Assembly: GCA_021292105.1 (NCBI GenBank)
Contig: CM037871.1
Location: 57,062,866 to 57,126,865 of the forward strand
Reading direction: 5' to 3'
Length of the DNA: 64,000 nt
Source: Anadara kagoshimensis
Taxonomy: Eukaryota; Mollusca; Bivalvia; Arcoida; Arcidae
Shown: in pieces, positions 1 to 53,993 of the stretch
How positions within the stretch are numbered: position 1 is the stretch's first letter
How the letters are laid out: the number at the start of each line of letters is the position of its first letter
Program-made: the position numbers and the translations under genes
Notes under the pieces: model-generated
Seen by the model: the letters and a program-made list of their open reading frames with translations, nothing else
Told to the model about the DNA's origin: nothing
The model's database searches: none

Positions 1-1099
1 ACCATTCATTCCATGCATTGGTCACGAAAAGTAGAACACAGATGTTCCTTATTTTCTGGTTGTATTTGGCAAGCATGTCAACAGTAAGAAGATTAAGATA
101 GTCAGAGAGGGATTTGATCTGGCGACCTCCTATACTCTATAAACCATTGCTCTACTAGTAGTGAGGTAACCACTAGCCACATTTCTCCTATGTTTTTAAT
201 TAATGTTAAGGTCTGGATTTATTATAAATTTTAAAACAAAATATCCATAAATTAATACATAAAAGGAGTTTAGAACCAGTATATGTTTTTAAAATGTATT
301 TATAATGAATCTGGTCCATTTATATTGAATGACCGTGTGAATGAACCATTCCATCCTCATCCACAGACTCTTAAGTCAGCCACTTCCATTGATGTTGCAA
401 TAAAAATTTAAATAAATAAAACACACACGATACAGGTGGAGCTGGGTATACGTACCTCTCACAATAACCATTTCAAAACACACAAACATAACCAGTGGCT
501 GTGACCCAAAACTGTTAGACGTCACGGGCACAAGTAAATATCCAACAAAACGGGTGTATGCGACGTCTTACTAAATTTGCATACCGCGTACAGTGTTAGC
601 TGACAGACTAGCGTAAGTATAACACTCGGCCTGTACTCTGAGCAAGATGACGGAGTTGTGACCTTCGACGGTTGGTGCGTTTTGATGTCACTGATGTCGG
701 CATTACAAGGAAAATCACGGTAGATAAATCCGATGTAGCATAAACGTATGATTAAATAGATTTTAAGTACCATTCCTTGTGATCTTCGGGATTTTTGTTT
801 TGTATTCAACACATTTTAAAAAACAATGTACTGAATCTAAACTCCTTATATATATTAATTTATGGATATTTTGTTTTAAAATTTATAATAAATCTAGACC
901 TTAACATTAATTAAAAAATAGGAGAAATGTGGCTAGTGGTTACCTCACTACTAGTAGAGCAATGGGAGTATAGGTCTCCAGATCAAATCCCTCTCTGACT
1001 CTCTTAATGTTCTTACTGTTGACATGCTTGCCAAATATAACCAGAAAATAAGGAACATCTGTGTTCTACTTCCCGTGACCAATGCATGGAATGAATGGT
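1..1099. repeat. Long foldback element with tRNA-like arms
   Basis: The first ~275 bases reappear inverted at about 831-1099: the window's opening bases 'accattcattccatgcattg' match the complement of the bases ending near 1099. The arms are nearly identical over most of their length and enclose a ~555 bp spacer with no convincing gene. Each arm holds a tRNA-like stretch, read left to right in the right arm at about 930-1000, with an A-box-like 'tggctagtgg' and a B-box-like 'gatcaaatccc'. The left end may continue outside the window, so the true terminus and any target duplication cannot be seen. It could be a foldback DNA element or two SINE-like copies in inverted orientation. Confidence 0.7.
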
Positions 1100-2081
1100 C
1101 CCCCTACCACAGAACAGGATAAACTAGCTCCAGATATAAGAGGGAAGTGATAAAAGTACAAGCCTTGAGTAAAATTAAATTTTTGATTTTGTCTAAATGA
1201 TTTATTTCATATAAGTGAATGTTTTAAAAACTGATTTTTCAATAAACTACAAAAGTCTACAAAGATGATGACTACAAAAAGTGTGATTCCTTGACGAGGG
1301 AATTCAGGTTAAGCAAAGCAAAGTAACCAGATGCTGATTTCTGTGTGAAAAAGAAATAATCTTGACTTCAAAGCCAAATTACAGTGTAATACCTGAACTG
1401 GTAACTTAAAATTAACTATATAATCTAATTGTCACATGACAGCTCAGTTTTCTCTAAGCAATGTTAATATTACAATTCCCCACTCAATAAGCAATGGGGG
1501 TGGGGTCGGGGTAGGTGGGGTCTTGAAATGCTGACTAGGCATGATCAAGAACTGAATGAAGGTAGTGAATTGAACCAAGCAATCGGAAGATGAACACTGA
1601 CTCACAGTGCCATTATATAGAACCCTCGGTCACTGCAACATGTATTTTGCATAGGTTTAAAAATCAACAACTTATTTAGCTGGCAACACCTCAATATAAG
1701 TGACATAACCTAACCCAGATGGCCAATTGGACCAATCTAAGCAATAACTGGTTTAACTTTCTTAATTACTTTGAATAAATGACAGCAAATTTACATATTT
1801 ATTGCAAATCTGATATTTAATCACAACTGCAGTTTTTACATTTTAACAAATGATCTCTAACTATCCACACATGTGTAAAGTATAATGCTTTGAAACAAAT
1901 ATGTGTATCTCTTAGTCTTATTAACATGTATTGTTGTAATTCTAAAATATACACTTGTCATACCTCCTCAAATAAACACACATACATTGTTTATACATTA
2001 ATGAAAGTATGACAATTAAAAATTGTCATCAAACTCCTATAAACCAGATCAACTATCCCTGTATTGTAATATATTCGCATA
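1100..2081. other. AT-rich stretch, no gene seen
   Basis: I see no coding exon or repeat with clear ends here. It holds a short GT-rich run near 1495-1525. If the minus-strand gene ending at 2082 is real, this stretch would include its 3' untranslated region. Confidence 0.4.
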
Positions 2082-4202
2082 TTAAAGTATCATATATATG
2101 TGACAAGTCCATTCATATGATGCCCAGTTATTACAGAAACTAGTTGGTCTGCTGTATCCATGAAATGGCAGATGAGATCCTGCTGTACCTAAAAAATAAA
2201 AGAAAATACTTTATAAGAATTGTGTCAATTTGTGACAAAATATAAGTAAAAAGATCACATACACCCAAATTAAAACATATATTGTACCCTTAATTGAATT
2301 GTAAGTATACTATTATGTGTACTGGTAATTAACATTAGAAATATCAGTATTGTAGTCATTACTAGTGGGTGAGGTCATCCTGGTCCAGCCCTTGAAAAAA
2401 GGGCCCATGTTTTCAATTATTTCAAAATATATAAACAAGAGAGAGTTGAAACTGGATTTATTCAAAACTTAACTTAGGCTAAAATATGGGTCAGTGTTGG
2501 TCAACAGACAGCATTATTATGAGACAAAAATATTATTTTGGGGTCAATCCACAAAACTGAACACTGAATATACTGGTACATATAAAACATATCATAATTG
2601 TCACCAAAATAAACTAGTACTGGGAGAAAAAAATGTACTTTATGCTGTCTTGAATGCACATAGATTGTTTAAAACTTATACAATATTATATAAATTCACA
2701 CATTTAGCAGAGCTCTGTTTACATATTAAGTATTACATATTGAGTATTTACACTTTGTATGATAGTACTTACCCATGCATCTCAAAAAGTCAAAATCTTG
2801 TTCTTGGACCTTACTTATTTTTAGTTACATACCACAGGAGGGAGGACACACCTGAAAACCACTTCCTCACCAAGTGCCTTGACTGAGTATTGAACCCTAC
2901 CCTCCCCGGTGAAAAGCAGGCACTTTTTCACAAGGCTAAAAGGTCTGAACCGCAAAGCCTGGCAGTAAATCACTCGATTATATCTACTATATACAACACA
3001 ACAACAACAAGACTTGCTCAGTCCTGCTACATAATACATGCACATGTAAATTTCCTAAAATAATATACAATGACTAACATTGTTAACTGCTGACATTACC
3101 GTATCTTTCTATACCTATTAACAGTTTATTTAGTATTGTGGCAGACCAGACTCTATGTGTAGCCAGGTAGCTCAATAGGTGGAGCGTTCCGCTAGTACTG
3201 GGAAGATCCTAGGTTCCAGTCTCGGTTTGGCTGCTATATTTTCCCCTTTCCTCTTACATTTGGGGGCTCGTCCGACCCTGGGAAGTGGCAGACAAACAGG
3301 TTGGAACCTGGTGCATGGTTTCGATTCAATGGAGTTGAATCCCAAAAGGGAAGGTAGGAATGTGGCAGACAGGATTTGATCATTTGCCGGGTAACTTAGT
3401 GGGTAGACGCTACCGCTAGCATTTGGAAGGTACCAGGTTCGAGTCCTGGTTTGGCTGTTGCATTTTTTCCATTTCCTTTTACAGTATTTTAACCCAACTA
3501 ACCCCCTCACCCATGGACACATTTTAACATCCCAACTGCCGAGACCTGAAATTCATGGCTCCGAGCGGTTTTTTTATGATATTGATGTTGCCGTTCAACA
3601 TCAATATCATAAAAAGCCGTTCGGAGCCATGAATTTCAGGTCTACCCAACTGCCTGGACAAACATTTATTTTGAACACTCCAGCACTGAACATGTTCTAA
3701 GTTGAAATGTCTAAATAATATACCGTGTATTCACGTGATGTTCAAAACAAAACTATATGCTTTTTAATAAACATATTGAAAATAATATACCTACTGTATT
3801 CGATCTTTTAACATCTTTGTTTCTGTTGTAAAATTTTGTGCATAGTTTCCCGTGTCTTCAATGCAAAAATGTGACACGGAATAAAGTTAAAGGTTATAAA
3901 AATCAAATTGGACACGTAACGGAATCCCGGAAGTTAACGCCGGATCATTCATGGTTTCATCAAGATTTTACTTTTGATAGCATTAGCATTGAATTAAGAA
4001 GAACTAAATTCACAATAATATTTTTAAATGTACAAGTTAAAAAGTAATGAACAAAATTTTATTGATATCTTTTCAAACTTGCAACACAAATGTGATAAAC
4101 CGTTTGAGCAGTTGAGTAACTGTTAGCAACACATACAATATTACAAATATATGTCGCCGGTTTTGCTAAAATATTGATAATTTACCGTAGATTTTCATTC
4201 AT
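2082..4202 (-). CDS. Possible 54-residue protein gene, three exons
   Basis: Putative minus-strand gene joined from 4186-4202 (ATG AAT GAA AAT CTA CG, then GTAAAT donor), 2773-2813 (donor GTAAGTAC, near-consensus) and 2082-2188 (acceptor after 'ttattttttag', stop TAA at 2082-2084). The three pieces are in phase and give 54 residues starting MNENLRKVQE and ending with WASYEWTCHIYMIL. The acceptor at 2814 lacks a good pyrimidine tract, so the middle join is the weakest point. The last exon is also open in a second frame with its own stop at 2090. The first intron contains the miniature LTR element at 3137-3483 and the hairpin at 3541-3644. I do not recognise the product. The splice signals and shared phase are seen; that this is an expressed gene is inference. 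Confidence 0.33.
3161..3232 (+). other. tRNA-like body inside the 5' LTR
   Basis: These 72 bases fold like a tRNA. The ends pair as acceptor arms (AGCCAGG with TTTGGCT), the D arm is GCTC/GAGC, and the 7-base anticodon loop CTAGTAC would read AGT (threonine type). The T arm is 'ctagg'/'ctcgg'. 'tagctcaatagg' fits the Pol III A box and 'ggttccagtct' approximates the B box. It is not called a tRNA gene because the same body occupies the same place in all four LTRs of the two copies. An internal Pol III promoter is likely but not proven. Confidence 0.7.
3385..3456 (+). other. tRNA-like body inside the 3' LTR
   Basis: Partner of the body at 3161-3232, also 72 bases with no length change. The T arm here is perfect (ccagg/cctgg around ttcgagt), and the B box 'ggttcgagtcc' matches the consensus exactly. 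The anticodon loop position reads AGC. Confidence 0.65.
3531..3654. mobile_element. Hairpin MITE with 10-bp target duplication
   Basis: A near-perfect palindrome (arms 3542-3590 and 3596-3643, about 5-base loop) is flanked on both sides by the 10 bp 'cccaactgcc' (3531-3540 and 3645-3654). A 9-11 bp target duplication is the hallmark of the Mutator/MULE superfamily, so this is best called a MULE-type foldback MITE. The arms start GAGACCTG. There is no coding capacity. Confidence 0.75.
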
Positions 4203-5220
4203 CTTGGGCTAAAATGTTAATTTATAATGTAAATAATCGTTTTTATTACCGTTTGCACCAAAAGTATCACTTATTTTAAAATTCAACTAAATAAATCCCC
4301 CAAAATACTAAATAAAAATAGGGGTAGGGTTGTTACCATAGCGACTGTACAGTAAACGAATCCGGTGACCCATATTTTTTAATATCTTATTTTATCAAAT
4401 ATATGTCAAGCTATATTCATGGAGATTTTGAAACTCTTGGTAATTTGCTTCTTAAAAATATTCCATTTTTTGTTCACACTTTTATCTGAAAATAGTGCTA
4501 AATATTATCCTGATAAATCTCTAATGCCCACACAATTGTTACTAACTTTTGTATTTGTTTTAGTTTGTTACTGTTCAAATCTCCTTAAAACAAAAGAGTA
4601 GATTTATGTCTTTCAACTGTCTTGGAAAATAAATAAATTTATCACCATTTAAGAGTTTAAACACTGCAACATATTGTTCACTCTTAAACTTATGAGGACC
4701 ACTAAAAATCCTTTAAAAAGGCATAAAACTGTGTAATTTCCACTACTTTTAAAGCCAGATACAGAAAAAGGGAGTCCGGTGACCTATACTAAATTGTTTA
4801 TTTTTCAAATCTTCACATTTTGCTCTACAAAATATATAAAATTCACAATGATGGTAATTAAACTTTTTTTCACTCGAGCCTCCTTAAAGAAGAAGAACTT
4901 GACCTTCCTGGCATGGCTTGTATTTGGTTTCTAAACTTCATAAAAACCCATAAAAGAAAGGTTCATTTAAATGTACCACTAAATCAATATCAGTAGCTCT
5001 AACACAAATTTTGACAGTCGTAATAGATGGTCTTGAGTCTTTTTCAAATGTTTATTCTACATCTGGTATCAACCAAATGTGGATTCTAAAATATTCTGAA
5101 GAATTACTTTACCTTTTGCTTCTAATTAGTATTGCTTCTAATACTTTAACTCGTGTAAAAAGTATAAAAACGTTTGATATATCTGCACCTTACACCACTA
5201 TTCCTAATTCTAAATTGAAA
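4203..5220. repeat. Diverged direct repeat, no gene seen
   Basis: The motif 'tccggtgacc' followed by an AT-rich tract occurs at about 4360 and again at about 4773, suggesting two decayed tandem copies of a ~410 bp unit. No exon is visible. Confidence 0.35.
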
Positions 5221-49000: not shown

Positions 49001-52000
49001 TAACTTGATTCCTAATTTCTGTATTCTCAATGTCAAACCTTATATTGTCCTCATGTTGTGCGTCATCATAAGCTCTTTTTGTTTGCATGGTGTCTTGAAT
49101 ATTTAAAGCTGTTGTTTTTGTGTCAACTGATGTTTCACCTGCAGCTTCACTTTTTTGAATTATTCTATCTACCGGTACATTGTCTGTAAAAAGGCATTTA
49201 ATCCTAGAATCATTAGTATCAAGTAGTATTCTTGCTGTATCCATTGTGTGTTGGACTGTTTTGTCCATGTTCTCGGAAAGGTTACACCTTTTTTTAGTAT
49301 CTTGAGTACCAGACAATACTGCATCCACATTACCTTGAGTACCCAACCATTCTGCATCCATAGTATCTTGAGTACCAGACAATACTGCATCCACATTACC
49401 TTGAGTACCCAACCATTCTGCATCCATAGTGTCTTGAGTGCCAGACAATATACTGCATCCACATTACTTTGAGTACCGAACCATTCTGCATCCATAGTAT
49501 CTTGAGTGCCAGACCATATTGCATTCACATTACTTTGAGTACCGAACCATTCTGCAATCATAGTATCTTGAGTGCCAGACAATACTGCATTCATAGTATC
49601 TTGAGTGCCAGACAATACTGCATCCACATTACCTTGAGTACTGAACCATTCTGCATCCATAGTATCTTGAGTGCCAGACAATACTGCATCCACATTACCT
49701 TGAGTACCCAACCATTCTGCATCCACAGTATCTTGAGTTCCAGACAATACTGCATCACAGTATCTTGAGTACCAGAAGATATAGCATCCACAGCACATAT
49801 ATTATGGACATTTCTAGCTATACACTTTGTATCACTTTTTGATTTACCAGAATCTTCTGTGGCCTCAGTATGTCTACCTGTACTACTTGTACCATTAAAA
49901 TCTACATGTTGTGTGTTGATTTTTTATCCTTGTTTATTGTACCATCAAATGTTCTATCAATTTCTCCTGTGATATGATTTGTTTCCTCTGCAGCATCACA
50001 TGTTCTATGTGTATCCTCAGTATTGTTAATTGTTGTATTTGTATCACATCTGGCATTGTTTGTTATGTCCTTGGTATTTTTGATTTGACCCTTATCTGAA
50101 TTCATTTTACTTTGCTTCTCACCAGCTGTCAGAACGGTCTCAGTGGTTCCAAAATCACTTTGCCTCTCACTAGCAGTGGGATTAGTCTCAGTGGTTCCAA
50201 AATCACTTTGCTTCTCACTAGCAGTGGGATTAGTCTCAGTGGTTCCAAAATCACTTTGCCTCTCACTAGCAGTGGGATTAGTCTCAGTGGTTCCAAAATC
50301 ACTTTGCCTCTCACTAGCAGTGGGATTAGTCTCAGTGGTTCCAAAATCACTTTGCATCTCACTAGCAGTGGGATTAGTCTCAGTGGTTCCAAAATCACTT
50401 TGCCTCTCACTAGCAGTGGGAATAGTCTCAGTGGTTCCAAAATCACTTTGCCTCTCACTAGCAGTGGGATTAGTCTCAGTGGTTCCAAAATCACTTTGCT
50501 TCTCACCAGCAGTGGGATTAGTCTCAGTGGTTCCAAAATCACTTTGCTTCTCACCAGCAGTGGGATTAGTCTCAGTGGTTTCAAAATCACTTTGCTTCTC
50601 ACCAGCAGTGGGATTAATCTCAGTGGTTCCAAAATTACTTTCCTTCTCACCAGCAGTGGGATTAGTCTCAGTGGTTCCAAAATCACTTTGCTTCTCACCA
50701 GCAGTGGGATTAGTCTCAGTGGTTCCAAAATCACTTTGCCTCTCACTAGCAGTGGGATTAGTCTCAGTGGTTCCAAAATCACTTTGCTTCTCACCAGCAG
50801 TGGGATTAGTCTCAGTGGTTCCAAAATCACTTTGCTTCTCACCAGCAGTGGGATTAATCTCAGTGGTTCCAAAATTACTTTCCTTCTCACCAGCAGTGGG
50901 ATTAGTCTCTGTGGGGTTTTGTTTTCCAACACTATTCGTCTTGCCTCCTTCATTATTTTCTAGATTCATGTTATTATCCTTAACTGTATCCTGTTTATAT
51001 TTGCCGTTTATTGAATAAATAGCTTCTTTGCATTCATTTTCAATTTCAGATACACTGGATGTTTTGATATTTTCTTCTCTAATCCCTTCTGTGCATGCTT
51101 CAGGAGTAAGCTGTTTTGCCATCTTTTGTTCAATAGTCTTTTCATCTCTATTTCTTTTAAACTTTTTACTATTTTGATATTTTTTTTGTCCGTGTTTTAA
51201 TTTTCCTATAATTTTTGCTAAATTTCTTATCTGCTGACTTCTTTTATGCTCATGGTTTTTATTTTATGTTTTACAAGTTCTTTTCGTGAAAAGAATTTCT
51301 TACTACAAAACTTGCATTGAAGTTTGGTTTCAGAAGCATCACTGTCAGAAAAATATTGGAACTATCTATAAGTTTATCCGAGCCTGATGAACTGTAATAG
51401 TTTCTTAACCCTTCTTTATAAAAGGGAGACAACTCTAGTTCTGAACCTACAGATAAATCCACATCTACTTATAAGCATGTTAATGGTTTAGAACTACACA
51501 TTTTATCTACTAAGTATTAAAGTGACCTCCATGACAGGAATACTACCATAACTTTCCAATGTAGAATTGTCTTTTGAAACATCAGTATAACTTTTACAAA
51601 AGTCTGTATTATTTTCACATATCATAATACTGTTTCATAATACTGTTTTTAGACTGAAGAACATCTGGTTTTGATGAGAAAACTTCCTATAAAATTTGAC
51701 CGTTCCCAGACTTTGTGTGAGACACTGCAGTATTTCAATCTGAACAGTCTGATTCTGTCAACTGATTTGAACATGAATACTTTCTGTGAAGATAGTCCAT
51801 GTAATGTTGACAGAGAGTTTTCTGATTGGTAAATTGTTGTTTGTACAGTGTTTTGATGATTGGGCGAGCCTTTCAAGTGGCTAGGAACACTGCTTATATC
51901 ACTGACATTGTCATAGAAACCCACTTTATCTGTCTTGAATTTTCTTTTAGCACATGAAGCATGGTCTATTGCCTTCCTAAAACTAGTAGTCAAAATTTCT

Positions 52001-53642: not shown

Positions 53643-53993
53643 TTTAACATTTAAAAAAATGAAGCATTAAAACCAGGATTCAAAATCCCACATGACACCT
53701 TCCCAATACTACTGCAACACTCTTACTGACTGAGCTACCAGCCCACATATGGAGACTGGTTTGTAATATTCCTCCCTCCCTTTTTTCATTCAACTACTTT
53801 GAACCTAAAACACCTTGTTCCACCCTGGGACCAACATTTTAGTTTGCCATTTCCCACATTTGGATGAGCCTCCAAATGTAACAGGAAATGGGGAAACTAG
53901 ACCAAACTGGGACTCAGAGCTAGAAACTTCAGAATAGCAGGATGCTCTGCTGACTAAGCTGCCCAGCCACCCATTGAGCTGGTTTATCATACA
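53643..53993 (-). mobile_element. Second TRIM-like element with tRNA-like LTRs
   Basis: Minus-strand copy with the same layout as 3137-3483. The 5' LTR is about 53993-53877 and contains a tRNA-like body ('ggctgggcagcttagtcagc'). The primer site follows the LTR end TTACA at 53874-53861 and resembles the tRNA-Pro type. The interior is ~108 bp and the purine tract is 53786-53771 (aaaaaagggagggagg). The 3' LTR is about 53768-53643, with a clearer tRNA-like body ('ggctggtagctcagtcagta', B-box-like 'gattttgaatcctgg'). Total ~351 bp against 347 for the first copy. Target duplications are no longer clear. Old and diverged. Confidence 0.7.

Follow-up and report, generated by a model that had tools for sequence, protein, structure and literature searches.

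The closest described relatives of the element analysed here are the Helenus elements, TRIMs with tRNA-derived LTRs that were named by Kojima 2024 (PMC10886601). Helenus elements are 311-1263 bp long, are represented by 51 families in five bivalve orders, and are flanked by 4-bp duplications in animals. Conserved A and B boxes and mobilisation by a Gypsy element that uses the same primer also belong to the picture of Helenus. In bivalves, tRNA-Pro is one of several Helenus primers and the tRNA-like body of seven families could encode tRNA-Thr, while a zebrafish family forms tandem arrays (PMC10886601). The term TRIMp3, with Pol III transcription as its criterion, was proposed in the same paper, where Pol III transcription of Helenus is itself deduced (PMC10886601). 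Among the literature matches listed, in a search whose scope lay outside Repbase and most subscription journals, PMC10886601 was the only one on bivalve Helenus. Another group, biv-TRIM, likewise consists of short non-coding bivalve TRIMs that occur in tandem arrays; its repeats measure 202-218 bp and its internal part 77-80 bp, and its authors report no unambiguous primer site (PMC6934838). With LTRs of 122-123 bp in the copy studied here and a median of 103 bp in its independent relatives, our elements are set apart from biv-TRIM as judged by that published description.

In plants, Cassandra offers the parallel of a TRIM whose LTR holds a Pol III promoter derived from a small RNA; there the source is 5S rRNA, whereas here it is a tRNA. 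A putative Pol III promoter of tRNA origin is also what our elements have in common with tRNA-derived SINEs. These SINEs spread by the target-primed reverse transcription of LINEs; LTRs, primer sites and 4-bp duplications of constant length are not known from them.

The window, as the whole 64-kb stretch of Anadara kagoshimensis DNA is called here, contains a 347-bp insertion that had been described in a first-pass annotation as a non-coding LTR skeleton with TG..CA ends, a tRNA-Pro-type primer site, a purine tract and GTAT duplications, and direct reading of the sequence confirmed each of these parts (Table 1). The insertion is non-coding and too short to leave room for retrotransposon enzymes. 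Its two LTRs are 72% identical when gaps are counted and 75.6% when they are not, and match each other by BLAST inside the window with E values of 3e-12 to 1e-11. The primer site begins 2 bases past the end of the 5’ LTR, and the purine tract, interrupted by a single T, runs up to the first base of the 3’ LTR. We take the primer site TGGGGGCTCGTCCG to be the complement of the 3’ end of tRNA-Pro plus CCA; the host genome holds 13 matching tRNA 3’ ends (11 of them exact and two with one mismatch; control 0), a count of 3’ ends and not of whole tRNA genes.

Table 1. Features of the insertion, of the large element around it and of a second copy (window positions)
Feature	Position	Strand	Basis or remark
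Large inverted-repeat element, part in window	1..4887	.	starts 3861 bp upstream (C15:57059005), ends at 4887 with CACTCGAGCCTCCTTAA
Target-site duplication GTAT, left copy	3133..3136	.	reading; identical flank in 30/30 inspected loci, including the window's own
5’ LTR, 122 bp, TGTGG...TTACA	3137..3258	+	alignment to 3’ LTR and to independent LTRs
tRNA-Thr(AGT)-like body, 5’ LTR	3161..3234	+	ARAGORN; Rfam RF00005, 37.8 bits, E 2.1e-6 at 3161-3233
A box, 5’ LTR	3168..3179	+	reading against known motifs
Changed B box, 5’ LTR	3212..3221	+	reading against known motifs
TTTT run past 5’ LTR tRNA-like body, possible Pol III terminator	3239..3242	+	reading; function inferred
Primer-binding site TGGGGGCTCGTCCG, complement of tRNA-Pro 3’ end plus CCA	3261..3274	+	reading; matched by host tRNA 3’ ends
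Purine tract AAAAGGGAAGGTAGGAA, one T	3344..3360	+	reading; aligns with purine tract of independent copy L062
3’ LTR, 123 bp; changed A box 3392-3403, good B box 3436-3445	3361..3483	+	
TTTTTT run past 3’ LTR tRNA-like body, possible Pol III terminator	3463..3468	+	reading; function inferred
Target-site duplication GTAT, right copy	3484..3487	.	reading
Second Helenus-like copy, more decayed	53650..53993	-	BLAST 53983-53768 and 53763-53699, and reading; 53650-side end approximate

Two further features of the window may be recorded. A hairpin at 3531-3659 (33-nt arms 3542-3574 and 3611-3643, plus 20-nt inner arms), with CCCAACTGCC on both sides, may be a small insertion made of inverted repeats and flanked by a 10-bp duplication. 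On the minus strand, a 453-codon open frame at 49902-51263 consists of a motif resembling SDFGTTETNPTAGEKQ that is repeated many times.

The same annotation had placed a tRNA-like body with A and B boxes in each LTR. In the 5’ LTR the body was recovered, being the only tRNA called by ARAGORN in the whole window and the only Rfam match at E<=1 between 3000 and 3600, an interval in which 5S rRNA was likewise absent at that threshold. The body of the 3’ LTR is homologous to it as judged by alignment but is no longer recognised as a tRNA, with no Rfam match at E<=1 and no ARAGORN call. The boxes, read against known motifs, are divided between the two repeats: the 5’ LTR has a near-consensus A box and a changed B box, the 3’ LTR a good B box and a changed A box, and the intact pair is present in neither. 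With LTRs so far apart and no LTR holding both boxes, the window copy is a decayed fossil.

The window copy resembles Helenus in its two LTRs holding tRNA-derived sequence (called as tRNA in the 5’ LTR and recognised by alignment in the 3’ LTR), in the primer site that closely follows the 5’ LTR, in the purine tract before the 3’ LTR, and in being short and non-coding (347 bp, against 318 bp for the independent copy L062). The 4-bp duplications of Helenus are found in independent copies, as described below. This likeness is one of structural features, taken from the published description. The class is not new, having already been published as Helenus, bivalves included (PMC10886601), which answers the question left open in the first-pass annotation. 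What differs from the published elements is that the window copy is decayed and has multiplied as the passenger of another element, and that the independent copies in this genome look like tRNA-Tyr(ATA) to ARAGORN.

The evidence for the passenger status comes from a search of the 1.115-Gb assembly (36 contigs) with the 355 bp of the insertion and its duplications. The 40 scored matches (of 2057 first-look candidates; window included) are 92-100% identical to the query, and in all 30 of these that were inspected, the window among them, the flanks on both sides of the insertion are the same; in two loci that form the two arms of one element (L014 and L015) the right end of the insertion is altered. 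With five loci as queries, alignments between loci are up to about 3.4 kb long, extend for kilobases beyond the insertion and often cover nearly the full locus. Ordinary LTR retrotransposition makes the two LTRs of an element identical in each round. Because of this equalisation, copies far more alike than the two LTRs of the window copy are not expected under retrotransposition, and the common flanks and kilobase-long alignments point to one old insertion and not to separate ones. The near-identical copies thus stem from the multiplication of a larger element and not from retrotransposition of the window copy.

The larger element was seen in 20-kb stretches around five loci, two of which (the window locus and a locus on C13) are whole inverted-repeat elements. 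At the window locus the element measures about 8.75 kb and the pieces of its arms are 88.5-94.6% alike, while the C13 element measures 9.47 kb and has arms that are 99.1% alike; the insertion is present in both arms of both. Overall, the large element is 8.7-9.5 kb long; each arm spans about 4 kb, and TTAA stands at the ends (TTAAGGAGGCTCGAGTG). The ends of the two whole elements read TTAAGGAGG(C/T)TCGAGTG, a pattern with 81 genome matches at up to 2 mismatches (control 0), and TTAA could either belong to the large element itself or be its target duplication. Open frames of at least 90 codons are few in the two elements, reach 137 codons at most and are non-coding in appearance. What is new here is a decayed Helenus-type member that is carried by, and has been multiplied with, a TTAA-ended inverted-repeat element.

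Copies of other origin were obtained with a pattern that combines an intact B box with the tRNA-Pro primer site, which gave 96 matches at 93 places (three pairs overlap; control 0), at least one of which, on C10, has no LTR end and probably does not belong to the group. A wider pattern, the primer site with the adjoining internal sequence at up to 3 mismatches, gave 363 matches (control 0), passenger copies included, so that miniature elements with tRNA-derived LTRs are present in hundreds of copies in this genome, in agreement with the 2024 paper. Thirty loci from the 96 matches, all on contigs C1-C5, were inspected, and 15 of them could be used as single copies with both ends assignable. The others were set aside as tandem arrays or because the 5’ LTR directly follows another purine tract (L041-L044, L047, L050-L052, L066, L067), because an end was not assignable (L048, L053, L055, L068), or as a duplicate (L064, of L063).

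These single copies carry duplications of their own. Exact 4-bp duplications flank 8 of the 15, compared with 2 of 210 mismatched pairs, and at least three of the four bases agree in 13 of the 15, compared with 29 of 210; the remaining two, L057 and L058, have no duplication even at three of four bases. The independent LTR is about 103 bp long (median of 38 LTRs) and consists mostly of the tRNA-like body, behind which come a run of T and a short end rich in pyrimidines; the internal part is about 109 bp and the primer site is as in the window copy. The most recent copy seen is L062 (318 bp), with LTRs 99% alike and flanking TTAG. LTR-LTR identity ranges from 0.63 to 0.99 across 25 alignable loci, arrays included, which indicates that most copies are old. 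Tandem LTR-internal-LTR-internal arrays are found at L041-L044, L050-L052 and L066-L067, with a period of about 205-213 bp.

As to the tRNA-like body, ARAGORN called tRNA-Tyr(ATA) in nine of ten independent loci and made no call in the tenth, and Rfam recognised a tRNA in both LTRs of all three loci scanned (L062, L065 and L059); of two passenger loci, one was called Thr(AGT) (L002) and the other gave no call (L017). The Thr(AGT) body of the window copy, as opposed to Tyr(ATA) in the independent copies, points to a diverged subfamily. As to the expectation that other copies in the genome would have the same ends, primer site and short duplications, the independent copies do have ends, primer site and duplications of the same kind, whereas the copies that are 92-99% identical to the window copy share its flanks in 30 of 30 loci. 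Similarly, the view of the insertion as an animal TRIM comparable to Cassandra, with a Pol III-type promoter derived from a tRNA, is supported by the independent copies in their similar ends, primer site and 4-bp duplications, but the window copy itself is decayed.

Taken together, the window element is very probably a decayed, non-coding miniature LTR retrotransposon of the Helenus group, whose close copies are accounted for by passenger multiplication. The anatomy suggests how an intact relative would replicate. Its RNA would probably be made by Pol III, beginning at the tRNA-derived promoter with which the 5’ LTR opens and finishing at the T run of the 3’ LTR. Host tRNA-Pro, bound to the primer site, would then start reverse transcription, second-strand synthesis would start from the purine tract, and enzymes presumably supplied by an autonomous LTR retrotransposon would copy the DNA and integrate it with a duplication of 4 bp. 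The T run that follows the tRNA body in each LTR should stop Pol III, so a full-length transcript could arise only if the polymerase passed the first of these runs.

A more specific proposal is put forward tentatively, as less likely than not. The independent LTR would be nearly all R region, that is, a tRNA gene lying 6-7 bases from the LTR end with its own Pol III terminator, and one promoter would give two products: a short tRNA-like RNA when the first T run ends transcription, and, rarely, a genomic RNA by read-through. Leakage of the terminator would set the rate of retrotransposition. The lineage has also spread by a second route, carried in the two arms of a TTAA-ended DNA element. Should transcription by Pol III and read-through of the terminator prove to be true, they would account for the replication of elements that have almost no U3.

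The best-placed alternative, which we consider unlikely, is that of a TRIM of the usual, Pol II-transcribed kind, into whose LTR a tRNA-derived sequence was inserted with no promoter role. In its favour, 36 of 38 independent LTRs contain TTTT past LTR position 55, directly after the tRNA body in the copies read, and this should shorten Pol III transcripts. The pattern of conservation, read from 19 independent 3’ LTRs only since the search pattern itself demanded an intact 5’ B box, also fits it in part: B-box columns are kept at 70-90%, no better than their surroundings, while A-box columns are well kept, with the majority base in at least 80% of rows. Moreover, in minimum-energy folding neither body of the window copy does better than its shuffles (z 0.13 and -0.02), so that the case for the body rests on tRNA homology and not on stability. 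Against it, a Pol II promoter would have little room, since most of the 103 bp of an independent LTR is taken up by the tRNA-like body, and this body is still called a tRNA at nine of ten loci by ARAGORN and at all three scanned with Rfam.

The likeness to an LTR element could also come from a dimeric SINE of tRNA origin, which would be short and non-coding, with two tRNA-like bodies per unit, but the TG..CA ends, the 14-base tRNA-Pro primer site, the purine tract, the constant 4-bp duplications, the tandem arrays of LTR and internal part, and the absence of a LINE-like tail by eye make it highly improbable. The notion that the two tRNA-like segments are native to the TTAA-ended inverted-repeat element and form no mobile element of their own agrees with the identical flanks of all 30 best-matching inspected loci, window included, yet it is barely credible. 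It was rejected because the independent copies lie in unrelated surroundings and have 4-bp duplications of their own, and because the window holds another decayed copy outside the large element (Table 1).

The reading preferred here, a decayed Helenus-group element multiplied as a passenger, carries two warnings for genome analysis. Near-identical genome copies of such elements can be passengers of another transposon. Additionally, LTRs of this type can inflate tRNA gene counts in such genomes, as has been reported for fungi (PMC10886601).

In the genome survey, an i-type lysozyme exon had 2dqa as its best PDB match, a globin was closest to neuroglobins, and a muscle myosin agreed at 74 of 88 aligned residues with its best matches, striated-muscle myosin chains of scallop, which points to a probable mollusc other than a scallop. 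A separate observation was made on contig C4, which is chromosome-sized: between 4.49 and 4.54 Mb (L078), three COX1 copies lie within 50 kb, all with in-frame TGA, and the one that was translated is open under table 5. These copies are mitochondrial DNA, either in the nucleus or in the assembly.
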